Below are positions 4,364-49,993 of a DNA stretch of 64,000 bases, piece after piece (within the stretch, counting starts at the first letter, position 1; the number at the start of each line of letters is the position of its first letter). Source of the DNA: Comamonadaceae bacterium (GTDB lineage Bacteria; Pseudomonadota; Gammaproteobacteria; Burkholderiales; Burkholderiaceae_C); the NCBI GenBank assembly GCA_947453965.1, contig CANGIQ010000011.1:1-64000 (forward strand), read 5' to 3'. A program made the translations under genes and the position numbers. A model generated the notes under the pieces. The model was not told the origin of the DNA. It was given only the letters and a program-made list of their open reading frames with translations, and made no database searches.

Positions 4364-4366
4364 GGC

Positions 4367-9672: not shown

Positions 9673-9700
9673 ATACGGCCCTGATGGGCCGTATTTTTTT
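9673..9700 (+). terminator. Rho-independent terminator after the purine operon
   Basis: Stem ATACGGCCC (9673-9681), loop TGAT, GGGCCGTAT (9686-9694), followed by a run of T to 9700. Confidence 0.9.
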
Positions 9701-9844
9701 ACCTTGGCATAACCTCACCCAATGCCACGCCAAATCGTCAGTACATGCTTAGCACTCATTGCGAAAGTTCTGCTTTCACCAAACATGACGGTCGAATGTC
9801 AAGATGATTCATAGAACTTTTTGTAAACCCATGTTTTATACTCA

Positions 9845-10123: not shown

Positions 10124-10434
10124 TGGCAAATCTGAACATGCACAACCCCACCGCACCTGGTGAACTCTTGTCAGGTTGGCTGACCGACTTACAAATGACC
10201 GTCACCTCATTCGCAGCTCACGTCGGCACCAGCCGTGTCATGCTCTCGCGACTGATTAATGGCCGCTCGGCCATCAGCGCCGATATGGACTTGCGCTTGT
10301 CCGAAGCGCTGGGCACCACGCCCGGTCATTGGCTTGCCTTGCAACAGCAACGTGATCTTTGGTCTGCGCAGCAACTTGCCAAGAAACGTAAAAGAATCAA
10401 GCAAATCCAACGCCCCTCACTGACTGATGCGTGA
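10123..10434 (+). CDS. higA: HigA-like antitoxin (XRE helix-turn-helix)
   Basis: Antitoxin of 103 residues. The N-terminal PGELLSGWLTDLQMTVTSFAAHVGTSRVMLSRLINGRSAISADMDLRLSEALGTTPGHWLALQ stretch is the standard HigA XRE domain, which represses its own promoter; the basic tail ends KKRKRIKQIQRP. Its start overlaps the higB stop by one base. Its last 18 bases overlap the 3' end of the convergent GntR/UTRA gene, so the module sits tightly against the sulfosugar locus. Confidence 0.9.
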   Translation: MANLNMHNPTAPGELLSGWLTDLQMTVTSFAAHVGTSRVMLSRLINGRSAISADMDLRLSEALGTTPGHWLALQQQRDLWSAQQLAKKRKRIKQIQRPSLTDA

Positions 10435-11136: not shown

Positions 11137-11226
11137 GTCGACAAGTATCGCAAATGCGTGGAAACACCCATGCCAGACACCGTAAATTCATATACCATTC
11201 ATTCACTTTTTCAGCGGGAGATTTTC

Positions 11227-13307: not shown

Positions 13308-13336
13308 CTCTTGGCACGCAGCGCCTGAAAGACCCC

Positions 13337-13828
13337 ATGCAACAACACACAGACGCGATGGACTATCGCAAAGCCTTGTCCAGTTTCGGCACCGGCGTGA
13401 CCGTGGTCAGCACCCACTGGCAAGGCCAAGACTCGGCCATGACCTGCAACTCGTTCAGTTCGGTCTCCCTCAACCCGCGCTTGGTGTTGTGGAGCATTCG
13501 CCGCGAGTCCCACAGCCACGAGGCTTTCACACGATCAGGCGGGTATACGGTGAGCGTATTGGCCCAGCACCAAGCTGCTCTGGCAGGACAATTTGCCAGC
13601 GGCAGCATGGACGAGCGTTTTGCCAATGTGCCTGTCGATCGCCTGGACAGCCAACGCCTGCGCCTGAGCCAGGCAGTGGCTTGGTTCGATTGCGATTTGC
13701 ACCAGATCATTGAAGCAGGAGACCACCACATCTTGCTGGGGGCCGTGCGTGACTTTGGGGTGTCCGATGCGGCAGGCTTGGGCTTTTACCGCAGTCAACT
13801 GTCGCAATTTGCGGCACTGCCCGCCTGA
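13337..13828 (+). CDS. Flavin reductase, SmoA/HpaC-like
   Basis: Short-chain NAD(P)H:flavin reductase of the split-barrel family, 163 residues. It begins DYRKALSSFGTGVTVVST and has the FMN-binding stretch MTCNSFSSVSLNPRLVLWSIRRESHSHEAF and GDHHILLGAVRDFGV. It would supply reduced FMN to the LLM monooxygenase two genes upstream. Separated from the AKR gene by 29 bases and last in the plus-strand operon; it faces the ABC importer operon across a gap of under 80 bases that shows no convincing terminator. Confidence 0.9.
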   Translation: MQQHTDAMDYRKALSSFGTGVTVVSTHWQGQDSAMTCNSFSSVSLNPRLVLWSIRRESHSHEAFTRSGGYTVSVLAQHQAALAGQFASGSMDERFANVPVDRLDSQRLRLSQAVAWFDCDLHQIIEAGDHHILLGAVRDFGVSDAAGLGFYRSQLSQFAALPA

Positions 13829-13906
13829 GCGGCTGCGCATCAGGCGCTGAGCAAGAAAAGTTAAGGCACGTCAAGGCAAGCGTTGGGCTAGCCAGGCAAC
13901 GTGCCC

Positions 13907-14752
13907 CTAGCCTTTCAGACCGCCTTGGGTCAGGCCACCGACCACGCGCTCTTGGAAGGCGGCGATCAGCAAGGCAATCGGCACGATCGACACAATCAGC
14001 GCCGCAGAAATAATCGGCCAGGGGAAGGTGAACTCGCCTTGGTAGAGCGCAATGCCCACAGGCAAGGTGCGCACGGCGGGGCTGGAGTTGAGCGACAAGG
14101 CGAGCAAAAACTCATCCCATGAATTGACGAATGCCAAGATGCCCGCGGTGAACACGCCCGGTGCAGACAGCGGCACCACCACACGCCACAAAGCGCCCAT
14201 CCGGGTGCAACCATCGATCATGGCGGCGTTCTCCAAGTCTTTGGGAATGCTCTGAAAAAAGCTCACCAACACCAAGGTGCACACCGGCATGTTCAACACC
14301 ACATAGGGAAAGATCAGCGCGGCATAGCTGTTGAGCCAACCCAGGGCACGCATGGTCTCAAAAATGGGGACCAGCAAGGTGACCAGTGGAAACATGCTGG
14401 AGGCCACGATGCAGGTCAAAATGATTTGGCGGTGCTTCAAGTTCAGACGGGCAATCGCATACGCTGCAAAGGCCGACACCACCAAAGACAACAGCGTGGC
14501 ACCGGTAGCCACCCAAAGACTGTTTTTCAAATAGGTCAGCAAGGGCTGATCGGTGAATGCGCGCACATAGTTGTCCAGCGTGGGTGCATGCGGCCACCAG
14601 GTGATGGGCTTTTGCACCAGCTCTACTTCAGGCTTAAGCGAGGTGAACAAAATCCAGACCGCTGGGAAAAACCCATTCACCACCACCATGCCTGCCGCTA
14701 CCCAGCGCAGCATGGGCGACGACCACAGCCCGTGTTGTTGCGCCATGCTCAT
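13907..14752 (-). CDS. Sugar ABC transporter permease (MalG/UgpE type)
   Basis: Inner-membrane permease of 281 residues with six predicted transmembrane segments. The cytoplasmic EAA loop is readable (ENAAMIDGCTRMGALWRVVVPLSAPG). An N-terminal FPAVWILFTSLKPEVEL is typical of the carbohydrate uptake transporter-1 G-type subunit. Its start overlaps the stop of the other permease by four bases. Last gene of the operon Gfo/Idh - ATPase - binding protein - permease - permease; the expected substrate is the sulfosugar or its glyceryl glycoside if the locus is sulfo-SMO. Confidence 0.92.
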   Translation of the reverse strand: MSMAQQHGLWSSPMLRWVAAGMVVVNGFFPAVWILFTSLKPEVELVQKPITWWPHAPTLDNYVRAFTDQPLLTYLKNSLWVATGATLLSLVVSAFAAYAIARLNLKHRQIILTCIVASSMFPLVTLLVPIFETMRALGWLNSYAALIFPYVVLNMPVCTLVLVSFFQSIPKDLENAAMIDGCTRMGALWRVVVPLSAPGVFTAGILAFVNSWDEFLLALSLNSSPAVRTLPVGIALYQGEFTFPWPIISAALIVSIVPIALLIAAFQERVVGGLTQGGLKG

Positions 14753-34333: not shown

Positions 34334-34484
34334 GCGTTCTCCACCGAACACCATGGGGTGACCAAGGACGGGGTCGCCCGGTGTGGTGCATGGCTTGGCA
34401 CAGGCTCACGGCATGCACCCTGCCATCCAGTATGCTCATTGAATTGCCAATTGATTGAGCCTTTTGTCACTCACCTCGCCGCCC

Positions 34485-37400
34485 ATGTCCAGACCCCACG
34501 CTACCGGTTTTATGGTGCTTCACAGCAACCAGCTCGAAGGCCTGCGCGAGCTGGCGGTGCAGTTCATCCGCAACCACCCGCTGCCCGTGCTCGCGCCCGA
34601 GGTCTTGCTGGTGCAAAGCAATGGCATGAAGCACTGGTTGGAATTGGCACTGGCCAAGGACTTAGGCGTGTGCGCGGCCACGCAGATTGAGCTGCCATCA
34701 ACCAAGCTGTGGCAAATTTACCGTGCCGTGCTGGGGCCCGACAGCGTACCCGCGCACATGCCCCTAGACAAATCACCCTTGGTGTGGCGCATCATGCGCC
34801 GCCTGCCCGAGTTGCTCGCACAGCCTCAGTTTGCACCGCTGAGAAACTATTTAGGTCAGAGTCAACCGCAAGGCGACGGACAAGCCTTCAGCATGAACCG
34901 CCGCGCCTACCAACTGGCTGGGCAATTGGCGGACGTGCTCGACGGTTACCAAAACTACCGTGCCGATTGGCTAGAAGACTGGGCCCAGGCCCGAGACCAG
35001 CTGCGCACCCCAACAGGCCTGGCCACGCCGCTGCCCGCTGCACAAAGCTGGCAACCCGCGTTGTGGCGTGATTTACTCCAGGACCTGCAGGCTGATGCCG
35101 AGGTGCAAGCCGCTTTGCATGCGGATGTGCAACACCACTACAGCTCGCGCGCCAAAGTGCACGAGGCGTTCATGGCCAAGATGGCAGCGCTGCCTGGGGG
35201 CCAACGCCCTGCGGGTGTGCCGCACCGCCTCATGGTGTTTGGCGTGACCTCGCTGCCCATGCAAACCGTGCAAGCGCTGGCAGCCTTAGGCCGCGTGTGC
35301 CAAGTGCTGATGCTGGTGCAAAACCCCTGCCAGCACTACTGGGGCCATGTGGTGGAAAGCCGTGTGCCACTGGCCAAGTTGGCCAAACAACGCCAAGCGC
35401 ACAAAGCCGGTTTGCCTGTGCCGCAAGACGATGGCTCACTGAGTGAGGCAGACCAATACACCCTGCACACCGACACCCACCCGTTACTGGCCGCATGGGG
35501 CAAACACGGTCGCGACTACTTGCATTTGCTCGATGGCTTTGACGATGTGGGGCTCTATCAAAATCAGTTCAACCGCGTGGATGTGTTTGTCGATCCCGCC
35601 CACACCGCGGCCGAGGCGGGCCGTGCACCCACGATGTTGGAGCACTTGCAATCGGCCTTGCTCAACCTCGACCCCCTGCCACCCACGCCGCATGAGGCGG
35701 CTGCACACGACCGCAGTGTGGACTTTGTGCAAACGCATTCAGCGCAACGCGAAGTCGAGGTGCTGCATGACCGCCTGCTGGCGTGGCTAGATGCCGATGC
35801 CCAGCTGAAGCCCAGCGACATCATGGTCATGGTGCCCGACATGGCCAACTTTGCACCGCACATTCACGCCGTGTTTGGCCGCTTTGCCAACAACGACCCA
35901 CGTCACCTGCCCTACACCGTGGCCGACACCACACCGCGCACCGAACCCCTGGTGCAAGCACTCGACACCCTGCTGCAACTGCCCCAGCTGCGCGTGACAC
36001 GCGTGGAGTGGCAAAGCCTGTTTGAAGTGGCCGCTGTGCGCCAACGCTTCGGCCTAGAAGAACATGAGGTGGCCCAGCTCAACACCTGGCTGGCCGATGC
36101 TGGCGTGCGCTGGGGCCTGGATGCCCCGCACCGCCAACCTTGGGGCATGGCACCCGACATGGCCGACGCCAACCAAAACAGCTGGCTGTTTGGCATCGAA
36201 CGTTTGTTGCTCGGGTATGCAACCGGCACAACCGATGAACTCGCCACCCCATGGGCCAACACCTTGCCGCTCGCGGGTGTGGGTGGCCTCGATGCACGCG
36301 TGGTCGATGGCCTGCTCCAATGGTTGCGCCACACCCACATTGCCTTGCTCAAACTGCGCCAAGACCACACACCTACCGAATGGGTGGCCGTGTTGCAGCA
36401 AGTCGTGGCTCTGTTTTTTCAAGCCAGCGACGACGCCGACGAACGTTTGATGGAACGCGTCATGGCCCCGCTGGAAACCTGGCTGGCCGAATGCCAACTG
36501 GCTCGCTTGGACAGCCCACTGCCGTTGGTGGTGGTGCGTGAACACTGGATGGCCCAGCTGCAACAGCCGGCCATGCAACGCCGCTTCTTTGGGGGCGGCG
36601 TGCAGTTCGCCACGCTCATGCCCATGCGCTCGATTCCCTTCCAGTGCGTGTGCTTGCTGGGCATGAACGATGGCGACTACCCGCGCAGCCAAACCCCACG
36701 CGACTTTGATTTGATGAGCGACGCCGCACACGCAGGCAGTACGCCATCACACTGGCGTGCCGGCGACCGCTCGCGCCGCGAAGACGATCGCTATTTGTTT
36801 TTAGAAGCTTTGCTGTCGGCCCGCGACAAGCTCTACATCAGCTGGCAAGGCCGCCGCACCACCGATCACGAAATCAAGCCGCCTTCGGTGTTGGTCGCGC
36901 AATTGATGGACTACCTCAACGCCACTTGGACGCGTGACGGTGACGCGGCCTGTGTGGCGCCGCTGCAGCCCTTGCAGGCTTTTTCGCCCAAGTACTTCAC
37001 CCAGGACTCGACGTTTCAGACCTATGCCGACGACTGGCAGCGTGCGTTGTTGCCTTCTTCATCTGCGCATGGGGCTTGGCTCAATGCACCCACCACCCAC
37101 GCAGCGGCACCGACCGAACTGACGTTGCTGCATTTGCAGCGTTTGCTGCGTCAACCCGTCGACGTGTTTTTGGTCGATCGTTTGCGCTTGCGCCTAGACC
37201 CACCTGAAGAGGCCGCAGAGGAAGAGGAACCGTTCGCCCTCAACGGACTCGACAAATACAAACTCAACCAGCGCATTGCACAGGCCGATGATGCCGCGCA
37301 AGCCCTTGCGCAACTGCGCCTCAGTGGCCAACTCGCCTTGGCGGGTTTTGGTGAAGCGCAACAACACCTGTTTGAGAGCGATCGCCAAAAACTGCGCGAA

Positions 37401-38057
37401 CAACTCGATGTGTTGTTACCCAAGTGGCCAAACGCATTGGGCGTGCAGTCGGCACACTGGCAGCTGGGCCACACGCACCTGAGTGCCGAATGGGCCAATG
37501 ACCCAACCCTGTGGCGCACCGACGCCCATCGCACGCAGTGGCTGCACGTGGCCCTGCGTCCAGGTGCAGTGACCGAAGGCAAAAAAGAAAACCAAGTCCC
37601 ACGCATCGACACACTCAGCCCACTGTGGCTGCACCACTTGGCCGCCTGTGCCAGTGGCACGCCCACCATCAGTGTGCAAATTGGTTTTGATGCTGCCATC
37701 GAACTCCAGCCCATCGCGGCAGACAAGGCGCGAGAACATTTGCAAGACCTGTGCAACGCTTATTTAGAAGCCTGGGCGCAGCCCCTGCCTGTGGCTGCCA
37801 AAACGGCCTGCGCCTTGGTGATGGGTGTGCACGGCGGCCACAAAGACCCTATGAGCAAAGCTCAAACCGCATTCCAAGGTGCCCACCAAAAGCGCGGTGA
37901 GTACCAAGACTCGCCCTCCCTGCAACGCGTGTTCACAAGCTTTGAAGAGATGCAAGCCAGCCTGAACCATTGGGCCACCCGCTTGTACGAGCCCGTGTTC
38001 AAAGCCGCCAAGGTGGTTCACCTACGTGCCGACAGTACGGAGGAAGCGGACGCATGA
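34485..38057 (+). CDS. recC: Exodeoxyribonuclease V subunit gamma
   Basis: 1190 residues. RecC recognises Chi and splits the strands in the RecBCD double-strand-break repair and DNA-degrading machine. It begins FMVLHSNQLEGLRELAVQFIRNHPLPVLAPEVLLVQSNGMKHWLELALA, a classic RecC start, and contains the inactivated-helicase region with VVREHWMAQL, QFATLMPMRSIPFQCVCLLGMNDGDYPR and GDRSRREDDRYLFLEALLSARDKLYISW. ATG at 34485 chosen over a TTG ten codons upstream. Its stop overlaps the recB start. Confidence 0.96.
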   Translation: MSRPHATGFMVLHSNQLEGLRELAVQFIRNHPLPVLAPEVLLVQSNGMKHWLELALAKDLGVCAATQIELPSTKLWQIYRAVLGPDSVPAHMPLDKSPLVWRIMRRLPELLAQPQFAPLRNYLGQSQPQGDGQAFSMNRRAYQLAGQLADVLDGYQNYRADWLEDWAQARDQLRTPTGLATPLPAAQSWQPALWRDLLQDLQADAEVQAALHADVQHHYSSRAKVHEAFMAKMAALPGGQRPAGVPHRLMVFGVTSLPMQTVQALAALGRVCQVLMLVQNPCQHYWGHVVESRVPLAKLAKQRQAHKAGLPVPQDDGSLSEADQYTLHTDTHPLLAAWGKHGRDYLHLLDGFDDVGLYQNQFNRVDVFVDPAHTAAEAGRAPTMLEHLQSALLNLDPLPPTPHEAAAHDRSVDFVQTHSAQREVEVLHDRLLAWLDADAQLKPSDIMVMVPDMANFAPHIHAVFGRFANNDPRHLPYTVADTTPRTEPLVQALDTLLQLPQLRVTRVEWQSLFEVAAVRQRFGLEEHEVAQLNTWLADAGVRWGLDAPHRQPWGMAPDMADANQNSWLFGIERLLLGYATGTTDELATPWANTLPLAGVGGLDARVVDGLLQWLRHTHIALLKLRQDHTPTEWVAVLQQVVALFFQASDDADERLMERVMAPLETWLAECQLARLDSPLPLVVVREHWMAQLQQPAMQRRFFGGGVQFATLMPMRSIPFQCVCLLGMNDGDYPRSQTPRDFDLMSDAAHAGSTPSHWRAGDRSRREDDRYLFLEALLSARDKLYISWQGRRTTDHEIKPPSVLVAQLMDYLNATWTRDGDAACVAPLQPLQAFSPKYFTQDSTFQTYADDWQRALLPSSSAHGAWLNAPTTHAAAPTELTLLHLQRLLRQPVDVFLVDRLRLRLDPPEEAAEEEEPFALNGLDKYKLNQRIAQADDAAQALAQLRLSGQLALAGFGEAQQHLFESDRQKLREQLDVLLPKWPNALGVQSAHWQLGHTHLSAEWANDPTLWRTDAHRTQWLHVALRPGAVTEGKKENQVPRIDTLSPLWLHHLAACASGTPTISVQIGFDAAIELQPIAADKAREHLQDLCNAYLEAWAQPLPVAAKTACALVMGVHGGHKDPMSKAQTAFQGAHQKRGEYQDSPSLQRVFTSFEEMQASLNHWATRLYEPVFKAAKVVHLRADSTEEADA

Positions 38058-41000
38058 AAGCCCTCAACGCGCACACCTTGGCACTGCATGGCCGCCAAGT
38101 GATTGAGGCCAGTGCAGGCACGGGCAAAACATGGACGCTTGCGGCGCTCTACCTGCGCTTGGTGTTGGGCCACGCACGCACCGAGGCTTTGCTGCCACCA
38201 CAAATTTTGGTGATGACGTTTACCGATGCGGCCACGGCCGAGCTGCGCGAGCGCATACGCACACGCCTGAGCCAAGCAGCCACCTATTTTGATTTGAGCG
38301 CGCAAGGCCGCGACTTTCCCGCGTCGTTGAAAGTTGACGAATTTTTAGAAACGCTACGTGACAGCTTTGACCCGCTGCTGTGGCCGCGCTGCGCGCTGCA
38401 GCTCAACTGCGCGGCCGAATGGATGGACGATGCCGCCATCTACACCATCCACGGCTGGTCGCGTCGCATGCTCACGCAGCATGCGCTAGAGAGCCACAAC
38501 CTGTTTGAACAAACGCGTCTTGAAAACGCCGATGCACTCAAACTCACGCTGGTGCAAGACTATTGGCGCGAATGGTTTTACCCGCTGAGCGGTGACACGC
38601 TGCAACACATCACGCCTTTGATTGGCCAAGACCCTGCCCAGCTGCTGAAAACTTTGAGCGAGATGTGGCGCGAACAAGAGCGCACACCCCGCGAGGTGGT
38701 GGCGCCCGACGTCACGCCCACACAAGCGATTGACGCGCACATGGCCTGGCAGGCGCAAGTAGACGCCACGGCACACACCGCCCGCGAGGCGTGGCATGAC
38801 AGCGTGCTGCAAGCCCTGCAAAACGCAGCTGCGCAGAAAAAAATCAAAGGCTTACGTGCCGACTACTTTGCCAACTGGCTCCATGTACTGCAAACGTGGG
38901 TCACACAAGACGCCAACACCAACACCAGCAAAGAAGTATTCAAAGTGCTAGAGCGCTTCACCACCCGAGCCCTGCAAGACAAAGGCTGGGCCGAGGCCGA
39001 GGGTTTTGCCTTCTTTGCTGCATTACAAGCGCATGTGGCATTGTTTGACCACAAACCCAGCACCGACAAACACATCGCCCTGCACGCCGCCTATGCGGTG
39101 GGCGAAGCCTACAAGACAGCCAAAGCCCAGCGTGCTGCATTTGACTTTTCAGACCTGTTGCAAAACCTGCATCACGCCGTCATGGCCGACGATGGCCGCT
39201 TGGCCACGGCCATTCGCCAGCAATACCCCGTGGCTTTGGTAGACGAGTTTCAAGACACCGACCCTTGGCAGTACGGCACGCTCAACCGCATCTATGCCCC
39301 CGAGGCCTGCACCGATGCCAACGCTTTGGTGATGATTGGCGACCCCAAGCAGGCTATTTACAGCTTTCGTGGCGCCGACTTGGGAACTTACTTGCAAGCG
39401 CGCAAAGACGCCCAAGCCAACAATGACGATGCGCTGCACACCCTCACCGGCAACCACCGCTCCAGCACGGGCTTGGTCAAGGCCGTCAACCATGTGTTCA
39501 TGCAAACCGAGCAAGCGTTTGCGTCAGCCCAAGGCGAGATTGAATTTGTGGAAGTGTCGGCCCAAGGCAAAGAGCCGGCGCTTGTGGTGAATGGTCAAGA
39601 ACACGCACCCTTCACTGTGTGGCACATGCACGCGCCAGGTGATGCTGAGGTGGTGAGCAGCACCAGCTACTTGCACCACACTGCGCAGGTGTTTGCTGAC
39701 CAAATGGCTGACTTGCTGAACAAACAAGCGGCGACGCCTGGCGACATGGCTGTGCTGGTGCGCAGCCAAAAGCAAGCCGATGCGGTGCGCCAGGCCCTGC
39801 GTGCACGGCACATTCCCAGCGTGTATTTGTCAGACCACACCAGCGTGTACCAATCGAGCGAGGCGACGGACCTGTGGCGTTTGTTGCGCGCTGTGGCCTC
39901 TCCCCGCCAAACAGCGTTGGTGCGTGCCGCCGTGGGCAGCCGCTTGTGGGCGTTGGACTTGCACAATGTGGCGACCATCACCCAAGACGAAGCGCAGTGG
40001 GAACAGTTGCTAGAACAGTTCCACCAATGGCACGCCCTGTGGCAACAACACGGCGTGCTGCCCATGCTCCACCAATGGCTGCACAGCCAACACGTGGCGC
40101 AGCGCTTGTTGGCCCAAACCGATGGCGAGCGCCGCCTGAGCAACTTGCTGCACTTGGGTGAACTGCTGCAGCACGCTGCCCAAAGTCTGCAAGGCGAGCA
40201 CGCTCTGGTGCGCTACCTGGGCGAACAAATTCAAAGCCCGCACCACGACAGTGACGCCCAACAAGCCCGCCTCGAAACCGATGCCCTGTGCGTGAAAGTC
40301 ATCACGTACCACAAGAGCAAGGGCTTGCAATACCCGCTGGTGTTTGTGCCGTTTGCAGGCGCATTTGCGGTAGAGAAAAAAAGCAAAACCAACTTCGTAC
40401 AAGAAGACACGAGCGACGAAGGCGATGACGACAGCGACGCAGAAGCCTCCTCGGTGGAAGAAGACATGCGTCTGTTGTACGTCGCCCTCACCCGTGCGCA
40501 GCGGGGTGTGTGGCTGGGCGTGGCTGAAACCAGAAACGATCTGAGTGGCAATGCTGACAAAGGCACGCTCAAGCGCAGCGCCTTGTCATTGCTGCTCCAA
40601 CGCACCACGCGTGGCGACTTAGGCAAACAGCTGAACACTCTGTGGGCCACGTGTGAACACATCCAAGTCACTGCGTTGCCTGCGTTAGAAAACATCCGCT
40701 ACCAAGCCACTGCGACCATCAGCGTCCCTAAAGACGCCCTCACGCCACAACGCACCCATCACAGCCTGTGGTGGACGGCCAGCTTCAGTGCCATCACGCG
40801 TGGGTTGGTGTCTGAGTCCAAACGCGACGAGGCGGTAGCGGATGCCATGACCGATGCGATGACCGAATTGCCTTCGTCAGATCTGGCATATTCAGCCGCC
40901 ACTGCCCCTACGCCTGAAGACATCAGCCCTTGGCAGAGCTTCCCGGCGGGTGCGCGCTACGGCACGCTGCTACACGACTTGCTGGAATGGTTGTCGCACA

Positions 41001-41674
41001 ACCAATGGCCCATTGCCAACCCGCAAGCCCCAGCCTGGACGCAACACGCGTGGGCCAACTTGTTAGCGCGCAAAGCCAGCTGGCTCCAACTCGACGATGC
41101 GCCGCGTGCACAGCTTGAGCCTTGGCTGCAAGCCGTGGTGCAAACGCCGCTGCCTTTGCATGAACTCAACGCTGTGCCATTGACACTGTGCGAACTGAAC
41201 CCTGAGCACCTATGGCCCGAGATGGAGTTCAACTTGGAGGTGCATCAACTCAGTGCCAACAAGCTCGACCAACTCATTCAAAGCCATGTGCTGGAAGGCA
41301 CGTCTCGGCCCGCGCTGCAAGCGCGGGTGATGCAAGGCATGCTGACGGGTTCGCTGGACTTGGTGCTGCAACACGATGGCCGCTACTGGGTGGTGGACTA
41401 CAAGTCCAACAAACTGCCCAGCTACGACAGCCCCGCTTTGCAAGACGCTGTGCTGCACAAGCGCTACGACGTGCAATACGTGCTCTACACCTTGGCTTTG
41501 CATCGATTGCTCAAAGTGCGTCTGCCCAACTACGACTACGCCCAGCACATGGGTGGTGCGGTGTACCTGTTCTTGCGTGGCATCCATACCGATGGTGCCG
41601 GTGTGCATGTGGACAGACCACCGCAGGCCTTGATTGAGGCCTTGGATGCGTTATTTGAGAAAGGTGCGCTATGA
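38054..41674 (+). CDS. recB: Exodeoxyribonuclease V subunit beta (helicase-nuclease)
   Basis: 1206 residues. SF1A helicase plus nuclease. Walker A is EASAGTGKTW (residues 18-27); motif II is LVDEFQDTDPWQYG near 395; motif III/IV includes VMIGDPKQAIYSFRGAD and the late motifs VITYHKSKGLQYPLVFVPF and MRLLYVALTRAQ. The C-terminal nuclease has GSLDLVLQHDGRYWVVDYKSNKL near 1095-1120 with the catalytic Asp, Asp and Lys. The start overlaps recC by four bases and the stop overlaps recD by four, so the three are one coupled unit. Confidence 0.97.
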   Translation: MKALNAHTLALHGRQVIEASAGTGKTWTLAALYLRLVLGHARTEALLPPQILVMTFTDAATAELRERIRTRLSQAATYFDLSAQGRDFPASLKVDEFLETLRDSFDPLLWPRCALQLNCAAEWMDDAAIYTIHGWSRRMLTQHALESHNLFEQTRLENADALKLTLVQDYWREWFYPLSGDTLQHITPLIGQDPAQLLKTLSEMWREQERTPREVVAPDVTPTQAIDAHMAWQAQVDATAHTAREAWHDSVLQALQNAAAQKKIKGLRADYFANWLHVLQTWVTQDANTNTSKEVFKVLERFTTRALQDKGWAEAEGFAFFAALQAHVALFDHKPSTDKHIALHAAYAVGEAYKTAKAQRAAFDFSDLLQNLHHAVMADDGRLATAIRQQYPVALVDEFQDTDPWQYGTLNRIYAPEACTDANALVMIGDPKQAIYSFRGADLGTYLQARKDAQANNDDALHTLTGNHRSSTGLVKAVNHVFMQTEQAFASAQGEIEFVEVSAQGKEPALVVNGQEHAPFTVWHMHAPGDAEVVSSTSYLHHTAQVFADQMADLLNKQAATPGDMAVLVRSQKQADAVRQALRARHIPSVYLSDHTSVYQSSEATDLWRLLRAVASPRQTALVRAAVGSRLWALDLHNVATITQDEAQWEQLLEQFHQWHALWQQHGVLPMLHQWLHSQHVAQRLLAQTDGERRLSNLLHLGELLQHAAQSLQGEHALVRYLGEQIQSPHHDSDAQQARLETDALCVKVITYHKSKGLQYPLVFVPFAGAFAVEKKSKTNFVQEDTSDEGDDDSDAEASSVEEDMRLLYVALTRAQRGVWLGVAETRNDLSGNADKGTLKRSALSLLLQRTTRGDLGKQLNTLWATCEHIQVTALPALENIRYQATATISVPKDALTPQRTHHSLWWTASFSAITRGLVSESKRDEAVADAMTDAMTELPSSDLAYSAATAPTPEDISPWQSFPAGARYGTLLHDLLEWLSHNQWPIANPQAPAWTQHAWANLLARKASWLQLDDAPRAQLEPWLQAVVQTPLPLHELNAVPLTLCELNPEHLWPEMEFNLEVHQLSANKLDQLIQSHVLEGTSRPALQARVMQGMLTGSLDLVLQHDGRYWVVDYKSNKLPSYDSPALQDAVLHKRYDVQYVLYTLALHRLLKVRLPNYDYAQHMGGAVYLFLRGIHTDGAGVHVDRPPQALIEALDALFEKGAL

Positions 41675-43494
41675 CCGTACTCAAAGACCTGCTCAGACAG
41701 CCTTGGGGACCTGCACATGCCACACCGCTCACAGGCTTGGACACCGCCCTGGCCAACTTGCTGCACAGCAAACACCCCAGCGACGACCCACGACACCTGT
41801 GGCTAGCGGCACTCACGAGCCACCAATGGGGGCGCGGTCATGCATGCCTGGACTTGACGGCACTGCAACACCAAGCCGCTGCGTGGCTGGGTTGGACCAA
41901 CGAGCAAGCTGCCGTGCTGCCCACCGACTTGCACACAGCTGCCCGCACACTGCCCTGGACCCAAGGTGATGCCAGCCCCTTGGTTTTGACCGAGGACGCG
42001 CAAGGTGTGCGTTTGTATTTACGCCGCGCCTGGACAGCCGAGCAAACCATCCGCCAAAGCATCGTGCAGCGTTTGGCATTGCCATGCGAAGTGACTGCTG
42101 ATTTGCAACAACGCTTGGATGTGTTGTTCCCCCCTATCAGCAACGGCGAGCCCGATAGGCAGCGCCTAGCTTGTGAAGTGGCGGCACAACACCGCATCAC
42201 CCTCATCACGGGTGGACCAGGCACGGGAAAAACCACCACGGTGGTCAAATTGTTGTCCCTGTTGGTGGGCACAGCTGCACACGAGTTGCAAATCCACCTC
42301 GCGGCGCCCACAGGCAAAGCGGCTGCGCGTTTGAGCGAATCCATCAGCAACGCGCTGACCCAGATGCCCGCCGATGTGCAAAAACGCATCCCCACCCATG
42401 CGCAAACACTGCACCGTTTGCTACAGACCAACAACCGCAGTCACCACAACGATCAGCGTGTGCATCAGCTCGCCACCGATGTGGTCTTGGTCGACGAAGC
42501 GTCGATGATTGATCTCGAGATGATGGCCCGCTTGCTGCAAACCGTGCCGCCCACTGCACGTTTGGTTTTGCTCGGCGACAAAGACCAGCTGGCCTCGGTC
42601 GAAGCCGGTGCGGTCATGTCGCAGCTGTGCACCGGCAGTTTGCTGCAACACCAAACTGTCACGCTGACACACAGCCATCGCTTTGATGTGCAAAGCGGCA
42701 TTGGCCAATGGGCACGCGCTGTGAATGCCGATGTGGTCGACAACACCCCTGCACTCCAAGCGTTGTGGAATACGGCGCCCGATTGGCTGGCCAGTTTGCC
42801 GCTGCAGCAAAGCATTGACGGCGAGACACCTGAGCCCGACGTCACACGTCTGCAACTCACCAGTGCCAGCGATGCCAAGCTGGCCGTGGGCTTGCGCTAC
42901 GGATGGCGCCATTGGTTGGCTTTGCTCGATGCACACCGCACGCACAACAAACAAGCCGCACAGCCGTGCAACGATGCGCAAGCCCTGGCCTTGCTCAAAG
43001 CCTTCACCGAGTTTTGTGTGCTGTGTGCGGTTCGCGAAGGCCCACTGGGAGTGGCACAACTCAATGCCCACATCGAACACGCACTGGGCTTGGGCGCCAG
43101 CACCTGGTATGTGGGCCGTCCAGTGATGGTGACGCGCAACGACTACGCGCTCGCGCTGATGAATGGCGACATCGGTCTGTGTCTGCCGGGGCCCGATGGC
43201 GTGTTGCGTGTGGCCTTCCCTGCAGCAGACGGTGGCGTGCGCTGGGTCATGCCCTCGCGCCTAGACAGCGTGGAGACCGTGTTTGCCATGACAGTGCACA
43301 AATCGCAAGGCTCTGAGTTTGCGCATGTGTTGTTGGTGATTCCCGCACAAGAGTCCCCCGTGCTCACGCGTGAGCTGGTTTACACCGGCCTCACCCGTGC
43401 GCGCCAGCGCCTCACGCTGTGGGCACCACAGTTGCAGGTGTTATGGAAGGCCTGCGCACGCCGCGTGTTGCGCAGTGGGGGCTTGAGCGATTAA
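41671..43494 (+). CDS. recD: Exodeoxyribonuclease V subunit alpha (SF1B helicase)
   Basis: 607 residues. Walker A is ITGGPGTGKTTT near residue 180; further motifs are AAPTGKAAARLSESI, VVLVDEASMIDLEMMARLL, LLGDKDQLASVEAGAV, and FAMTVHKSQGSEF with YTGLTRARQRLTLW at the C-terminus. The ATG overlaps the recB stop. The stop is only 29 bases before the zorA-like gene, which opens the possibility of co-transcription. Confidence 0.96.
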   Translation: MTVLKDLLRQPWGPAHATPLTGLDTALANLLHSKHPSDDPRHLWLAALTSHQWGRGHACLDLTALQHQAAAWLGWTNEQAAVLPTDLHTAARTLPWTQGDASPLVLTEDAQGVRLYLRRAWTAEQTIRQSIVQRLALPCEVTADLQQRLDVLFPPISNGEPDRQRLACEVAAQHRITLITGGPGTGKTTTVVKLLSLLVGTAAHELQIHLAAPTGKAAARLSESISNALTQMPADVQKRIPTHAQTLHRLLQTNNRSHHNDQRVHQLATDVVLVDEASMIDLEMMARLLQTVPPTARLVLLGDKDQLASVEAGAVMSQLCTGSLLQHQTVTLTHSHRFDVQSGIGQWARAVNADVVDNTPALQALWNTAPDWLASLPLQQSIDGETPEPDVTRLQLTSASDAKLAVGLRYGWRHWLALLDAHRTHNKQAAQPCNDAQALALLKAFTEFCVLCAVREGPLGVAQLNAHIEHALGLGASTWYVGRPVMVTRNDYALALMNGDIGLCLPGPDGVLRVAFPAADGGVRWVMPSRLDSVETVFAMTVHKSQGSEFAHVLLVIPAQESPVLTRELVYTGLTRARQRLTLWAPQLQVLWKACARRVLRSGGLSD

Positions 43495-43505: not shown

Positions 43506-43517
43506 ATTGTTCACAAT
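43506..43517. promoter_or_regulatory. Short inverted repeat ATTGT-TC-ACAAT in the recD-zorA gap
   Basis: Arms ATTGT and ACAAT around two bases in the 29-base gap. It could be an operator or only a chance match. It overlaps where a ribosome site for the zorA-like gene should be (AGGGG at 43518-43522). Confidence 0.25.
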
Positions 43518-43523
43518 AGGGGC

Positions 43524-45074
43524 ATGTTGACAAACCCCTACCTCGCCCAGCTGCAAGAGCTGGCTGTTCCGCTGGCCATTGCTGGCGTGATTCTTGTGTT
43601 TTCTGCGCTCAGTTTTGGTGTCTGGTCCGCGCGCATTCGTCAGGTACGACATGCGGTGCGTGCCCTTGACCAACACATGGCCCAATTCACCGGCAACAGT
43701 CGGGACGCCTTGACCAGCGCGCACGCACAGACCCACGACGATGAACTCAAGTTCTTGCTGCGCGAAACCGAAGCCGGCTTGATCGACTTGCCCACGCAAG
43801 CGGGGAGCCGAACCGGTCCACGGGCGAGTTACAGCTTTCGCAGCCATGCCGACACCTGGACGGTGCGCAGCGTGCTCGGCGGCCGCATGAACTTGGCCTT
43901 GTTTGAAACCATGCCCAATTTGTTGATTGGTTTTGGCCTGATGTGCACCTTCATCTTTTTGGCCGTGGCTTTGCAGCAAGCGGGCTTGGCGCTCAACGCG
44001 CTGGATGTGTCCGCACGCCAGCAAGACCAGGCCTTGCAGTCGCTGATTGCCACAGCGGGTGGCAAGTTCATCACGTCTATCGCAGGCTTGCTATGTTCCT
44101 TGGTATGGAACTGGCGTGCCAAAGTAGCGCTGGAGAATTTGCAGGCCAGCATCGACACGCTGTGCCACACCCTGCGCAGCCATGTGCCCGACAACGCCGC
44201 CGAAGCCAGCGTGCGCATGCAACTGGCCTTGTTCCAAGACATCTTGGATGAAAACCGTTCACAGGTGAGTGAGCTGCGACGCTTTGAAGGTGACTTTGCC
44301 CATGCAATTGGCGATGCGCTGGCACGCCAGATGCAGCCTGCATTTGACAAGCTGGGCAGCTTGGCCGACAGCATTCAAGCGTCCAGCCAAAGCTTTGGCA
44401 GCGCAGGCAGCCAAGCCGCTGGTGAGTTGAGCAAGGCCGGTGCGGCCATGACGCAAGGGATTGAAAACGGCCTCGCGTCATTCAACGACGCGGTCACCAC
44501 CTTGGCACAGACCATTCAAACCACCCGCGCCACCGTGACGGATCTGGACGCCGCGCTGGGCCGTGCGGCCACCGCAGGCGATCAAGGCACACAGCGGATG
44601 GAAACCTTGCTGGGCAGTTTTGGTCAAACCATCGCCAGCGTGCAAACCGCGATGTCGGGCTTGCAAGGCACGGTCGACAAAATCGACCACATGGCCGACA
44701 AGTTCAAGGACAGCGCCAGCGCGATTGAAAGCTCGGTCAACCTGCAACGCGCTGCCGCTGCTGATTTCAAAGAAGCCTTGGTGCCCATGAACCAAGCGCT
44801 GGGCCAAACCGTGGACACCCTCAAAACCAGCGCGGTGTCGGCCGAAGAAGCACTAGGCCATGTACGCACGCATTTGCAAGACGCCCAAAAAGCGCTCACC
44901 GGCACGGTAGACGCGCTCACCCAAGGCGTGTCGGGCTACAGCACACAAATTGCCGAGCTGCACACCAAGATGGACCAACACTTGGCCACAGCCGTCAACC
45001 AACTCAGTGGCAGCATCACCAACCTGGAGGAAGTGCTCGATGAGTTCATCGATGCGCTGCCGCCCAAGGCTTGA
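43524..45074 (+). CDS. zorA: ZorA-like MotA/ExbB-type membrane protein with long helical tail
   Basis: 516 residues. Transmembrane segments at about 12-34, 131-152 and 176-197; the stretch LALFETMPNLLIGFGLMCTFIFLAVALQQAGLAL is characteristic of ZorA-type proteins, where the MotA-like core precedes a long cytoplasmic tail. Residues about 200-516 are an almost wholly helical Ala/Gln/Ser/Thr-rich tail (methyl-accepting-like heptads with LGSFGQTIASVQTAMSGL), matching the known ZorA tail that carries the signal from the motor. The ATG at 43524 has a weak AGGGG site. It is followed by zorB- and zorC-like genes, which separates it from TolQ and ExbB. Expected to form a proton-driven motor with ZorB. 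Anti-phage function is inferred. Confidence 0.82.
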   Translation: MLTNPYLAQLQELAVPLAIAGVILVFSALSFGVWSARIRQVRHAVRALDQHMAQFTGNSRDALTSAHAQTHDDELKFLLRETEAGLIDLPTQAGSRTGPRASYSFRSHADTWTVRSVLGGRMNLALFETMPNLLIGFGLMCTFIFLAVALQQAGLALNALDVSARQQDQALQSLIATAGGKFITSIAGLLCSLVWNWRAKVALENLQASIDTLCHTLRSHVPDNAAEASVRMQLALFQDILDENRSQVSELRRFEGDFAHAIGDALARQMQPAFDKLGSLADSIQASSQSFGSAGSQAAGELSKAGAAMTQGIENGLASFNDAVTTLAQTIQTTRATVTDLDAALGRAATAGDQGTQRMETLLGSFGQTIASVQTAMSGLQGTVDKIDHMADKFKDSASAIESSVNLQRAAAADFKEALVPMNQALGQTVDTLKTSAVSAEEALGHVRTHLQDAQKALTGTVDALTQGVSGYSTQIAELHTKMDQHLATAVNQLSGSITNLEEVLDEFIDALPPKA

Positions 45075-45106
45075 TGCACTGAGCATTCAGTCCGCGCAAA
45101 GTTCTC

Positions 45107-45859
45107 ATGTTCATCAAAACACGCCGCAACACCGTTGCCACCCACGAGCAGGTCGAAGAGTCAGGCTACATGGCTTCGGCCAGCGACTTGATGATTGGCC
45201 TGCTGTTCATCTTCATCGTGATGGTGATGGTGCTGCTCTCACGCAAACCCGAACAGCCGCCTGAACCTCCCGCCGACCCACTGGCCACCGTGGTGCACAC
45301 CATTGGCACCAAGCTGCAAAACGCGGGCGTGCCGGTGACGATCAACCAAGTCTCGGGCGTGATCAGCCTGCCAGCCGACACCTTGTTTGCGCGCGGCAGT
45401 GCCGAGCTTGAAGGCTTGGGCGTGCGCACACTGCGCCAATCGGCCGAACAGTTGCAACAGGTGCTGCCTTGCTACATCTATTCGCAACGCCGCCATTTGC
45501 CAGCCGACTGCCCTCCCAACCCACAACAGGTGGAAATTGAAACCATCCTGATTGAAGGCCACACCGACTCTGTGCCACTGCACCGGGGCGACTACAACAA
45601 CTGGCATTTGGGTCTGGACCGCGCACGTGCGGTCTACAAAGTGCTGGGTTCAGAAGGCATGCAAAGCTACCGAAACGAACGCGAACAACCGGTGTTTGGC
45701 ATCAGCTCTTACGCTGACGAGCGCCCCACCAGCAAGGAGAACGAGGCCCAAAACCGCCGCGTCGAGCTGCGTTTTGTATTGGCATTCCAACCCACCGAAG
45801 TCGGCGCCTCCAAAGCCCCGAGCAGCACCTTGAAAAAGATGCAAGAGACGGTGCACTAG
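45107..45859 (+). CDS. zorB: ZorB-like MotB/OmpA-type stator protein
   Basis: 250 residues. A short cytoplasmic N-terminus, one transmembrane helix at about 26-45 (SDLMIGLLFIFIVMVMVLL) with the conserved Asp at 27 that carries protons in MotB/ZorB proteins, a proline-rich linker (PEQPPEPPADP), and a peptidoglycan-binding OmpA-like domain (about 85-235) with IEGHTDSVPLHRGDYNNWHLGLDRARAVYKVL and NRRVELRFVLAF. Encoded 32 bases after the zorA-like gene. The combination with an EH-signature gene is the mark of Zorya; an ordinary flagellar or Tol stator would have other neighbours. Confidence 0.85.
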   Translation: MFIKTRRNTVATHEQVEESGYMASASDLMIGLLFIFIVMVMVLLSRKPEQPPEPPADPLATVVHTIGTKLQNAGVPVTINQVSGVISLPADTLFARGSAELEGLGVRTLRQSAEQLQQVLPCYIYSQRRHLPADCPPNPQQVEIETILIEGHTDSVPLHRGDYNNWHLGLDRARAVYKVLGSEGMQSYRNEREQPVFGISSYADERPTSKENEAQNRRVELRFVLAFQPTEVGASKAPSSTLKKMQETVH

Positions 45860-45885
45860 ACACGCGCGCATTGCCACCACACGCT

Positions 45886-47310
45886 ATGCAAGAGTTCTTC
45901 GCGCCCCTGCCACCCGACTTTGACCAGCTCGCCCACGCGGCGCGCACCAAGCGCGGCGGCTTGGGCACAGACCCCGATTTGCGCACCGTGGGCGAGCGCA
46001 CCTACAGCGCGTTTGAACGTGTGCAGTTTGCGCCCCACAGCGCCACACCACGCCAACGCGATTGGCGACACATTCCGTACGCGCTGTGGCTAGGGACTGA
46101 ACGTGGCTTGCACACCCACACACCGCTGATTGACCACTACTTTGAGGTGGCCGTGCCCGAAGCACGCACCTCGCGCCGCCCGCTCAAATGGGGCCGTGGC
46201 TTGCTGCACACCTATTTGCAAGGCTTCAACTCCGACAGCCCCGTGTTTTTGAAGTTGGCTCAAGCCGCACGCAGCTTCTTTTTAGACCCACGCGTGTTGG
46301 CTTCGTTGTCTGAAACCGAGGCCAATGGTCTAGAGCGGCTCATCACCACACTCGATGTGCTGGACCCACGATCAGGGCCGCAGCGCGTCGCCGACGATAT
46401 TTTGAGCTTGCCCGATGGCAAAACCTTGCTCGACTGGCAAACACGCCACGGACTCACATCTGGCTTTTGGCTCAACAACTTTTGCCGGCACGCTTTTTTA
46501 GAAGCCCTGCAAGCCCCCGAGGACGTGCGCCGTGACCTGCGCTACATCCAACGCGTGTGTGCTTGGGCCGTGCACGATGCAGGCACACCACAACAACGCT
46601 TTCGCTACCCCATTTGCCGCGATGAGTTTGCCTACAGCTTGCTCTCACCCTGGTTTCAAACCACGCCGCCACCCGAGGTGCAACACACCTTGATGTCTGA
46701 ATTGCTGCGCACCTTGGGCGATCCACGTCACAACCATGCGGGCTGGTTGGGTGTGCGGCGCGAAGCCATCGAGACGGTGAGCCGCTGGCTCACGGGTCGC
46801 ACCATGGATGCGTTTTTTCAAATCTTGCAACACACCCAAGATGACATTGGGCCTTACCGTCGGCGCTTTTGGGAAGCCTACTTTCATGCCGGCCACATCT
46901 TGGAGGCCTGGGTGGCGTTGGGCGAAGATGCCGCCAATGCCTTGCGAGCCATTGACGTACGAGGCGAGCTCGATCACGCCAAAATTTTGGGCAAAATTTC
47001 GCCTAACCAATGTGTGCTGATGCTGCGCATGGGCCACCTCCTGTTTTGCGATTGGAGCCACCAAGGCCGCTTGCGCGCCATTGACATCCACAGCCGCCAA
47101 GCGCCCAAGCTGTACCAGACACAATACGAACTCTTTGAGCTGCGTTTTGCCACACCGCTGGATTTCAACCAAGGACGTTTGGATGACCCGGGCCTGCTGC
47201 ACCTCGAATCTGAGCTCGGCGGCTGGCAAGATACGGCCCGTGACTTTATTTCGCAACATCTGGGCATTACCCTGCCGTTGGCAGATTTGATGCCCACTGA
47301 ATCGACCTAA
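45886..47310 (+). CDS. zorC: ZorC-like protein with EH-signature domain
   Basis: 474 residues, soluble. The C-terminal region holds the EH-signature pattern: FWEAYFHAGHILEAWVALGEDAANAL followed by CVLMLRMGHLLFCDWSHQGRLRAIDI, with WSH near residue 389. ZorC of Zorya type I is a DNA-associated effector partner recruited by the ZorAB motor. Start set at MQEFFAPLP (45886); a TTG five codons upstream is possible. Gap to zorB is 26 bases. ZorD, the helicase-nuclease normally encoded next in type I, is absent; the next gene is a DUF4337 membrane protein. The assignment rests on the EH motif and gene order. Confidence 0.8.
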   Translation: MQEFFAPLPPDFDQLAHAARTKRGGLGTDPDLRTVGERTYSAFERVQFAPHSATPRQRDWRHIPYALWLGTERGLHTHTPLIDHYFEVAVPEARTSRRPLKWGRGLLHTYLQGFNSDSPVFLKLAQAARSFFLDPRVLASLSETEANGLERLITTLDVLDPRSGPQRVADDILSLPDGKTLLDWQTRHGLTSGFWLNNFCRHAFLEALQAPEDVRRDLRYIQRVCAWAVHDAGTPQQRFRYPICRDEFAYSLLSPWFQTTPPPEVQHTLMSELLRTLGDPRHNHAGWLGVRREAIETVSRWLTGRTMDAFFQILQHTQDDIGPYRRRFWEAYFHAGHILEAWVALGEDAANALRAIDVRGELDHAKILGKISPNQCVLMLRMGHLLFCDWSHQGRLRAIDIHSRQAPKLYQTQYELFELRFATPLDFNQGRLDDPGLLHLESELGGWQDTARDFISQHLGITLPLADLMPTEST

Positions 47311-47340: not shown

Positions 47341-47913
47341 ATGAGTGAAGTGCCAGAAACCGAATTGCCCGAACAACACAACGACCCCTTCCGCACCCGC
47401 TGCGCCATGTTGGTGTCTGTCTTGGCCATGGTGTTGGCGATCGCCAGCTTGGGTGGCAACAATGCCTCTAAAGAAAGCATGGTCAACAACATCTTGGCCT
47501 CCAACGCTTATTCGTTCTACCAAGCCAAGAACATTCGCCAAACCGAATACAAAATTGCGGCAGCTGACATCGAAATACAACTGGCCCAGGACAAAGCCAG
47601 CCCTGCTGCCAAAGCCTTGTTAGAGAAAAAACTGGCCGATTACCAAAAAAACATCGCCCGCTATGAGTCAGAACCCGAAACCGGGGAAGGCAAAAAAGAG
47701 CTGATGGCCAAAGCCAAGGAATACGAGCACGAGCGCGACCACGCCATGGCCCAAGACCCTTGGTTTGACTACGCCGAAGCCCTGCTGCAAATTGCCATTG
47801 TGTTGACCTCGGTGGCGATTTTGACCGGCGCACGCGCTTTGTTCTGGGTGCCTTGTGGCCTTGGCATTCTGGGCATTTTGGCAACCATCAATGGGTTTAT
47901 CCTGTTGATTTGA
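47341..47913 (+). CDS. DUF4337-family membrane protein
   Basis: 190 residues with three hydrophobic segments: about 23-42 (MLVSVLAMVLAIASLGGNN), 145-165 and 168-190. Between them is a charged coiled-coil stretch (QAKNIRQTEYKIAAADIEIQLAQDKASPAAKALLEKKLADYQKNIARYE). The motif NNASKESMVNNILASNAYSFYQAKNIRQTEYK is the recognised pattern of DUF4337 proteins, whose function is unknown. It begins 30 bases after the zorC-like gene with a good AAGGAG site, and a terminator follows. It may be a fourth member of that operon or an unrelated passenger. Confidence 0.82.
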   Translation: MSEVPETELPEQHNDPFRTRCAMLVSVLAMVLAIASLGGNNASKESMVNNILASNAYSFYQAKNIRQTEYKIAAADIEIQLAQDKASPAAKALLEKKLADYQKNIARYESEPETGEGKKELMAKAKEYEHERDHAMAQDPWFDYAEALLQIAIVLTSVAILTGARALFWVPCGLGILGILATINGFILLI

Positions 47914-48028: not shown

Positions 48029-49993
48029 ATGAGCGACATCACCATCCACCAGCCATCGGCTGAGTTCGTCAAGCAAGCCAACGTATCCGGCATGGCCGCC
48101 TACGACGCCTTGTGCAAAAAAGCAGAAACCGACTACGAAGGCTTTTGGGCCGAGCAAGCCCGCGAATTGCTGAGCTGGAAAACCCCCTTCACCAAAGTGC
48201 TCGACGAAAGCAAGGCCCCCTTCTTTAAGTGGTTCGAAGACGGCACCTTGAACGCGTCTTACAACTGTCTGGACCGCAACATCGAAAAAGGCTTGGGCGA
48301 CAAAACCGCCATCATCTTCGAAGCCGACGGCGGCGAAGTGACCAAGGCCACTTACAAGCAATTGCTGGCCAAGACGTGTCAATACGCCAACGCGCTGAAA
48401 TCCATCGGCGTCAAAAAGGGCGACCGCGTGATGATCTACATCTCGATGTCGATCGAAGGCGTGGCCGCCATGCAAGCCTGTGCCCGCATTGGCGCCACCC
48501 ACTCGGTGGTGTTCGGTGGTTTCTCGGCGCAATCGCTGCGTGACCGCGTGGAAGACACCGGCGCGGTGGCCATCATCACCGCTGACCAACAAGTGCGCGG
48601 TGGCAAGCACCTGCCCTTGAAAGCCATCGTCGACGAAGCCCTGACTCTGGGTGGCTGCGACTCGGTGAAAAACGTGTTGGTGGTCAAGCGCACCGGTGGC
48701 GACATTGCCATGGCCGCAGGCCGCGACCAATGGATGGCCGACTTGGCCGACAAGCAAGCCACCACCTGTGAACCCGAGTGGGTGGGTGCTGAGCACCCCT
48801 TGTTCTTGCTCTACACCTCGGGCTCGACAGGCAAGCCCAAAGGTGTGCAACACAGCACCGGCGGCTATTTGCTGCATGCGGCCTTGACCACCAAGTGGAC
48901 GTTTGACTTGAAAGACAACGACGTGTTTTGGTGCACCGCCGACATCGGCTGGGTCACTGGCCACACCTACATCACCTACGGCCCCTTGGCTTTGGGCGGC
49001 ACTGAAATCGTGTTCGAAGGCGTGCCGACCTATCCTGACGCGGGCCGCTTCTGGAAGATGATCCAAGACCACAAAGTTTCGATCTTCTACACAGCCCCCA
49101 CGGCAATTCGTTCATTGATCAAAGCGGCTGAAGCCAACGATGCCGTTCACCCCAAGAGCTACAACCTCTCGAGCCTGCGTCTGCTGGGCTCGGTGGGCGA
49201 GCCGATCAACCCCGCCGCCTGGGAGTGGTACTACAAGCATGTGGGCGGCAGCCGTTGCCCCATCGTGGACACCTTCTGGCAAACCGAAACCGGCGGCCAC
49301 ATGATCACCCCCCTGCCCGGTGTGACGCCCATGGTGCCTGGCTCTTGCACCTTGCCCTTCCCCGGCATTCAAGCGGCCGTGGTGGACGAAGCAGGCCACG
49401 ACATGCCCAACGGCCAAGGCGGCATCTTGGTGGTCAAGCGCCCCTGGCCTTCGATGATTCGCACCATCTGGGGTGACCCAGACCGTTTCGTCAAAAGCTA
49501 CTACCCCGAAGAATTCAAGGGCAAGTACTACCTGGCGGGCGACGGTGCGATCCGCGACGAGAAAACTGGCTACTTCACCATCACCGGTCGCATTGACGAC
49601 GTGTTGAACGTGTCGGGTCACCGCATGGGCACGATGGAAATCGAATCGGCCTTGGTGAGCTGCACCGAGTTGGTGGCAGAAGCCGCGGTGGTCGGTCGCC
49701 CCGACGATACCACTGGCGAAGCCATCTGCGCCTTCGTGGTGTTGAAGCGTCCACGCCCCACGGGCGACGAAGCCAAGCAAATTGCTAAGATTTTGCGTGA
49801 CCACGTGGGCAAAGAAATTGGCCCCATCGCCAAGCCTAAAGACATCCGCTTCGGCGACAACTTGCCCAAGACCCGCTCGGGCAAGATCATGCGCCGCTTG
49901 CTGCGCAGCTTGGCCAAGAACGAGGCGATCACCCAAGACACCTCGACCCTGGAAAACCCAGCCATTCTTGATCAGCTGACCGACAACCACTGA
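48029..49993 (+). CDS. acs: Acetyl-CoA synthetase
   Basis: AMP-forming acetate:CoA ligase, 654 residues, the usual length. Motifs: the nucleotide loop [20 protein letters not shown] near 263-282, the adenylate region [12 protein letters not shown], the hinge [25 protein letters not shown], and the C-terminal catalytic Lys in [12 protein letters not shown] near residue 614, a known acetylation site in this family. Good AAGAAGGAG ribosome site. It stands between two terminators and is thus a single-gene unit. Confidence 0.97.

Follow-up and report, generated by a model that had tools for sequence, protein, structure and literature searches.

We analysed a stretch of 64,000 nucleotides from a Comamonadaceae bacterium (GenBank assembly GCA_947453965.1, contig CANGIQ010000011.1; hereafter the window), in which zorA, zorB and zorC, three genes of the Zorya defence system, lie in this order on the plus strand between recD and acs. 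The locus is very probably a derived type I Zorya lacking ZorD, and ZorD-less zorABC occupies a fixed place in the chromosomes of a single freshwater clade of Comamonadaceae (Limnohabitans and kin). Since ZorD was searched for and not found, the set falls short of type I in the full sense. An earlier note, made from the sequence alone, had described a Zorya type I plan without zorD directly downstream of recBCD, and had suggested that RecBCD may stand in for ZorD or that the genes may be a housekeeping offshoot.

ZorA, ZorB and ZorC match type I components

The zorA gene (43524..45074, 516 aa; PADLOC ZorA1, 3.1e-27) encodes a MotA-like head followed by a helical tail of about 295 residues. The zorB product (45107..45859, 250 aa; PADLOC ZorB1, 5.8e-54) has a transmembrane (TM) helix containing Asp27 and an OmpA/MotB-like peptidoglycan-binding domain, and zorC (45886..47310, 474 aa; PADLOC ZorC1, 9.4e-64) encodes an EH-signature protein, for which a TTG at 45871, upstream of the called start, is a possible alternative start. 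All three open reading frames (ORFs) are intact and run in the same direction as recC-recB-recD. The order of a MotA-like, a MotB/OmpA-like and an EH-signature protein, as read in the earlier note, agrees with the ORFs and with the PADLOC and Pfam matches. What characterises the three proteins in type I was found here: a MotA/ExbB-like ZorA with a long cytoplasmic tail, a ZorB with a TM Asp and a peptidoglycan-binding domain, and a ZorC with the EH signature.

In Pfam, ZorC matched EH_Signature at 131.5 bits (cut-off 27.5), the single such match in the whole genome, and ZorB matched OmpA; for ZorA only coiled-coil-like matches were returned, all below cut-off. The NCBIfam model ZorA_1 scored 94 bits against a cut-off of 190, which marks this ZorA as divergent. 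For ZorB the flagellar MotD/MotB models ranked first, far below cut-off (46 bits vs 283), with no ZorB model returned, and ZorC had no NCBIfam match. The best PDB match of ZorB was 8vvn, a type I ZorB. A profile search of the PDB with ZorC recovered the solved ZorC 8r68; a single-sequence search recovered no ZorC. Zorya proteins were the best matches among solved structures (for the ZorA head and ZorC by fold), so that PADLOC and the structures both place Zorya ahead of MotAB, ExbBD and TolQR; the better Tol, Exb or Mot match that the earlier note had allowed for appeared only as the weak MotB-type ranking of ZorB in NCBIfam. Nine proteins of the window, from the locus and its surroundings, were scanned for ZorE (type II) and ZorF/ZorG (type III), and none matched; this search did not extend to other parts of the genome.

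ZorC retains the entire ZorC fold and ZorB its peptidoglycan-binding motif. Asp27 of ZorB, inside the TM segment, and Thr142 and Thr184/Ser185 of ZorA are near-invariant in the clade and in other homologues, and the EGHTD stretch of ZorB is near-invariant as well. From the alignments, Asp27 and the three ZorA residues appear to be in line with the Asp and the Ser/Thr ring reported for ZorAB (PMC11890865). Past about residue 220 ZorA was predicted to be helical with low confidence, and the predicted model was poor over the tail (blocks with a predicted local distance difference test score of 41-66 from residue 231 on; overall mean 62).

A clade-specific change at the EH-signature glutamate was considered and rejected. 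D389 of the window ZorC aligns with E400 of 8r68; ZorC mutants at E400 and H443 were reportedly described by Hu and colleagues in Nature in 2025. The position is D in 24/24 clade ZorCs and E in 17/17 others, a pattern which is an artefact because the search pattern of the GTDB scan itself contained the EH-signature motif. In ZorD-bearing loci found by profile Asp is also present at this site, as DWSH (L150, L155, L156, L161) or DWSF (L152, L153).

ZorD is absent from the clade loci

ZorD was searched for with a profile built from three ZorD proteins, each assigned as ZorD1 by PADLOC, at a threshold of E <= 1e-20. No ZorD lies between zorC and acs in the window, as had been claimed from the sequence, and the profile found none elsewhere in the 96% complete assembly. 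Across 84 genomes of the genus, the window's included, 79 gave no match; the same held for 27 of the 29 zorC-bearing genomes and for 14 of the 16 good ones among them (completeness 90% or more, contamination 5% or less; the other zorC-bearing genomes are in many cases incomplete). In a scan of GTDB genomes ZorD was not seen at any of 23 clade loci, so that the fourth type I component is not encoded with zorABC at these places or, by profile, in the window's genome.

A zorD encoded elsewhere with its own zorABC in the same genome had been named as evidence that would speak against a ZorD-less system. This was not found in the window's genome. It does occur in G005, where a full-length ZorD belongs to a second, canonical ZorABCD locus (L048) and the recD-linked zorABC persists alongside. 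Limnohabitans sp. JirII-31 likewise carries both a canonical ZorABCD (L091) and the recD-linked ZorD-less set (L075) in one genome. The ZorD match in G006 was partial (profile positions 345-933) and about 700 kb from its zorC, and in G033 a ZorD stands next to a ZorC remnant at a contig edge, this genome having no zorC match in the genus search. ZorD acting in trans, or an unrecognised nuclease encoded elsewhere as its replacement, would fit the second Zorya of G005; a profile search would also miss an unrelated nuclease, and the assemblies are incomplete. We nevertheless consider this very unlikely, given how many zorC-bearing genomes, good ones included, lack a ZorD match.

zorABC is a fixed and selected locus of one clade

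ZorC was found in 29/84 genomes of the genus (16/40 good ones) and ZorB in the same 29; G072 has in addition a zorA at a contig end. Outside the genus, 397 genomes drawn from the family gave only five ZorC matches, at 34% identity or less; L060-L062 are three weak partial ZorC matches in the family sample. A plasmid search returned one distant match, in Azospirillum oryzae. The set was flanked by recD and acs in all 20 fetched loci that show both borders; some of these loci have a DUF4337 gene in front of acs. Window genes were traced across clade loci to see which neighbours are constant, and this held only for recD, zorABC and acs. The acs gene (acetyl-CoA synthetase; 48029..49993, plus strand, TIGR02188) is the fixed downstream border of the locus.

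The GTDB scan, whose loci overlap largely with the genomes of the genus search and are not independent of them, gave 40 loci, 23 of the clade (Limnohabitans sp. Jir61, JirII-31 and B9-3 included) and 17 others. In 22 of the 23 clade loci acs lies 3' of zorC, and the remaining contig stops before it. ZorD directly follows ZorC in 15 of the 17 others; the contig of L105 stops after ZorC, and L102 has none. In samples of the order and the phylum, where 18 of 26 non-own places were read, ZorD adjoins ZorC in 14, L157 ends first, and L165-L167 have none in the flank.

Two side observations concern these exceptions. L165-L167 (in G882, G919 and G843) represent a second, distant ZorABC set without ZorD in the flank read 3' of zorC (1.4, 7.7 and 2.2 kb, respectively), with ZorA of 1251-1308 aa; in L166 the ZorC match covers no more than positions 74-267 of the 423 in the EH_Signature model. 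L102 has a broken zorC without zorD and, about 3.6 kb further, a ZorA-like gene (48 bits) and a ZorB-like gene recognised by eye only.

In the trees the clade formed one group, with supports of 99/99 (ZorB) and 100/100 (ZorC). Its nearest group was the ZorD-bearing L089-L092 (both together 100/99 for ZorB and 100/98 for ZorC), and further ZorD-bearing systems surround the two. Without an outgroup, nesting of the clade holds for every root position except on the clade's own branch; the deeper branches are long, and the ZorB bootstrap had not converged completely. L102, L105 and L157 were labelled as ZorD-bearing in the trees though no ZorD was seen in them (none within the contig of L102; L105 and L157 end just after zorC). 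Because the clade lies among ZorD-bearing type I systems, the simplest reading of the trees would be one loss of zorD on the clade stem, most simply with vertical inheritance afterwards. In a tree of Acs from 25 zorABC-bearing and five other genomes, the zorABC-bearing ones made up one side of a branch (Shimodaira-Hasegawa-like approximate likelihood ratio test, 98). The distances of ZorA, ZorB and ZorC correlated with the RecD and Acs distances (r 0.62-0.80; of 2000 permutations, no more than one gave so high a value).

zorABC is under purifying selection like that on recD. In the near group (9-10 genomes) the ratio of non-synonymous to synonymous differences (pN/pS) was 0.07 for ZorB, 0.15 for ZorC, 0.16 for ZorA, 0.18 for RecD and 0.05 for Acs. 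When all genomes were taken together, synonymous sites being close to saturation, it was 0.20, 0.30, 0.27, 0.30 and 0.07, respectively. Both comparisons omitted genes that lacked a stop codon, had internal stops or were shorter than 85% of the median length. The low ratios indicate genes in use. A decaying type I Zorya, kept by chance only, would account for the loss of zorD, which was needed in the canonical system tested (PMC11890865). It is hardly credible, because pN/pS of these genes is low (0.07-0.16 for the near group, 0.20-0.30 for all genomes) and none of the 31 ZorC matches of the genus contains an internal stop codon.

The same constancy brings in the main rival, a housekeeping offshoot in which the ZorAB motor and ZorC were co-opted after the loss of ZorD, for example for envelope-stress sensing or chromosome-membrane contact, with no part in phage defence; it is the main rival because clade-wide fixation is more typical of such genes. 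The single place between recD and acs, the descent that follows the neighbouring genes, the mean ZorB identity of 95% in the near group and the scarcity of matches outside the genus all favour it. The ZorC fold kept whole speaks against it, as do the zorABC-less lineages within the genus, which live without the set, and the retained peptidoglycan-binding motif of ZorB, whose domain is reported to be needed for defence in tested systems (PMC11890865). On balance we regard a housekeeping role as doubtful.

recD linkage and a conserved element at the zorA start

Upstream of zorA, on the same strand, lie recC (34455..38057; TIGR01450, 901 bits), recB (37970..41674; TIGR00609, 924 bits, with a PDDEXK_1 nuclease domain) and recD (41671..43494; TIGR01447, 501.6 bits), which encode the RecBCD gamma subunit, the helicase-nuclease subunit and RecD; all three scores are above cut-off. 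The ORF coordinates bear out that the set starts 29 bases past recD (recD end 43494, zorA start 43524). In 14 of 21 fetched loci with both recD and zorA the gap was 57 nt or less, and 1.3-2.4 kb in the other seven; with the window, 15/22 loci are close, and recD and zorA are adjacent in G021 and G072 too. The survey of adjacency that the earlier note had called for thus found it conserved in the clade. In L047 no recD was present within 1.37 kb upstream of zorA. Four of the seven wide gaps were examined: L051 and L052 have a gene for an amidohydrolase there, L045 one for a monomeric isocitrate dehydrogenase, and L032 an ORF with a PAAR motif and two ORFs without Pfam match. In L029, L031, L033, L053 and L054 recD is within 57 nt of zorA while recB is at least 1 kb away or outside the flank, and in G029 recC is about 22 kb from recD.

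RecD was found (E <= 1e-60) in 65/84 genomes of the genus. Of the 29 zorC-bearing genomes 25 have it, and RecC was found in the four that do not (G024, G039, G062, G076), in each of which zorA stands at the end of a contig. A search for RecC in 12 genomes, ten of which carry zorC, found it in all; in G072, which has no zorC, the match is only a 57-residue piece.

Comparison of the clade loci revealed a conserved element at the zorA start, ACAATAGGGGCATG in the window (43513..43526, plus strand), whose last bases are the start codon. The consensus AYAATAGN4ATG (AYAATAGNNNNATG) was found near the start of 24/24 clade zorA genes readable there, and near none of the starts of 20 recD, 28 zorB, 28 zorC, 11 DUF4337 and 27 acs genes. 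The stretch searched ran from 40 bases upstream of the called start to 60 bases downstream, and starts whose match began after residue 12 or with too little upstream sequence were omitted. The element persists where differing sequence lies upstream; in L044 and L050 it falls inside the called zorA ORF, which is extended to an upstream GTG. Because the count in the window alone is at chance level (1 found vs 0.38 expected) and the element was chosen post hoc, it is the conservation across loci that supports it. When the sequence was scanned with the sigma-70 consensus, sites were not clearly more frequent than expected (2 vs 1.6), and none on the plus strand marked a promoter where zorA starts. 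The element may be the -10 box of a leaderless promoter, and its conservation suggests zorABC as a transcription unit of its own. An operon with recBCD was rejected as a general description, given the recD-zorA gaps and this element; the recBCD-Zorya operon raised in the earlier note is also at odds with the split between recD and recB in eight loci.

Between zorC and acs the window has a gene for a DUF4337 membrane protein (47341..47913, plus strand; PF14235). It is probably not part of the Zorya set; not all members of the clade have it here. Where present it is conserved (pN/pS 0.11, 11 genomes). A second closeness of RecBD-like genes and Zorya was seen outside the clade, in L096 (Variovorax sp. 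CF079, 2-14225): genes for RecB-like, RecD-like, PDC-S40 and HNH nuclease proteins precede a complete ZorABCD within a stretch of about 7 kb, with 3.3 kb from the recD-like gene to zorA.

Predicted working of the ZorD-less set

A Zorya-like working of the clade zorABC is likely. In type I Zorya, ZorAB is reported to sense phage entry and to call ZorC and ZorD to the entering DNA (PMC12904381, PMC11890865). We tentatively predict that zorABC still acts as an envelope-triggered DNA capture device together with a resident nuclease, which is about as likely as not. An ion-driven ZorA5B2 motor would sense the breach of wall and inner membrane during phage DNA entry, the ZorA tail would signal to ZorC, and ZorC would bind and hold the incoming DNA. 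With ZorD gone, the simplest substitute for the cutting would be a nuclease that the cell already has. The most likely one is RecBCD, the nearest candidate because of where it lies and of its action on DNA ends. RecBCD attacks free DNA ends; recD adjoins zorA, and RecD or RecC is present in each of the 29 zorC-bearing genomes. In E. coli, Zorya II is reported to depend on recD and not on recB or recC (preprint PMC13192584). RecBCD as the cutting step is possible, if on the doubtful side. The fuller proposal, a fixed and inherited three-gene Zorya in which RecBCD, through recD, replaces ZorD and is handed phage DNA by the motor and ZorC, is decidedly doubtful.

Several observations weigh against this predicted working. 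When any component of the Serratia type I Zorya was deleted in E. coli, protection was reported to be abolished (PMC11890865). Canonical ZorABC alone thus did not protect that host. E. coli has RecBCD of its own. Defence systems are seldom fixed throughout a clade, as this set is, and a housekeeping role would account for that as well. The 1.3-2.4 kb between recD and zorA in 7/22 loci, and the parting of recD from recB, or a recB outside the flank, in L029, L031, L032, L033, L051, L052, L053 and L054, loosen the link, and zorA seems to have a promoter of its own. In seven zorABC-less genomes of the genus that were read, recC, recB and recD stand together with no acs in their flank, so RecBCD does not predict zorABC. 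Finally, RecD of L045 and L121 groups with that of zorABC-less genomes (a quick tree with long branches, supports 84-96), which suggests that recD may have been exchanged there.

ZorABC might also suffice by itself, DNA-bound ZorC blocking entry or replication, or an opened ZorAB channel depolarising the cell, with no nuclease involved. The three parts are intact and co-conserved, and of the traced neighbours only recD and acs accompany them throughout, which would suit this explanation. We judge it unlikely, as E. coli carrying canonical ZorABC but no ZorD was not protected (PMC11890865).

Significance and comparison with known systems

In the open-licence PMC literature we found no report of a ZorD-less zorABC or a recD-linked Zorya among the matches listed; the ZorD-less type I derivative is real, conserved and, as far as this search can tell, unreported. 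ZorD was indispensable in the Serratia type I system as reported (PMC11890865), and the retention of ZorABC under selection without it suggests that motor and ZorC together either perform a task of their own or act through another effector. If RecBCD were that effector, a membrane sensor of infection would be tied to a central DNA-repair nuclease, which would be relevant to the report that Zorya II depends on recD (preprint PMC13192584). The presence of the locus in Limnohabitans strains Jir61, JirII-31 and B9-3 makes the question testable.

Among known systems the locus is closest to Zorya type I, with which it shares the order of ZorA, ZorB and ZorC, the best matches by sequence and fold, and a position among type I systems in the ZorB and ZorC trees. 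It differs in lacking ZorD, in being fixed between recD and acs with a descent that follows its neighbours, and in a shorter ZorA (464-520 aa in intact clade members vs 729 aa in 8qyd), although ZorA is also short (541-597 aa) in the near ZorD-bearing relatives. Zorya type III (ZorA, ZorB, ZorF, ZorG; PMC8565338) is described as a ZorAB pair without ZorC and ZorD, and so indicates that the motor can join other partners; the clade locus, in contrast, has ZorC, and no ZorF or ZorG was found among the locus proteins scanned. The RecBCD-dependent synergy of Zorya II and Druantia III (preprint PMC13192584) involves a type II system with its own nuclease, ZorE, and the accessible text of the preprint reports no gene linkage. 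It resembles the present case in the reported functional link between Zorya and recD/RecBCD.

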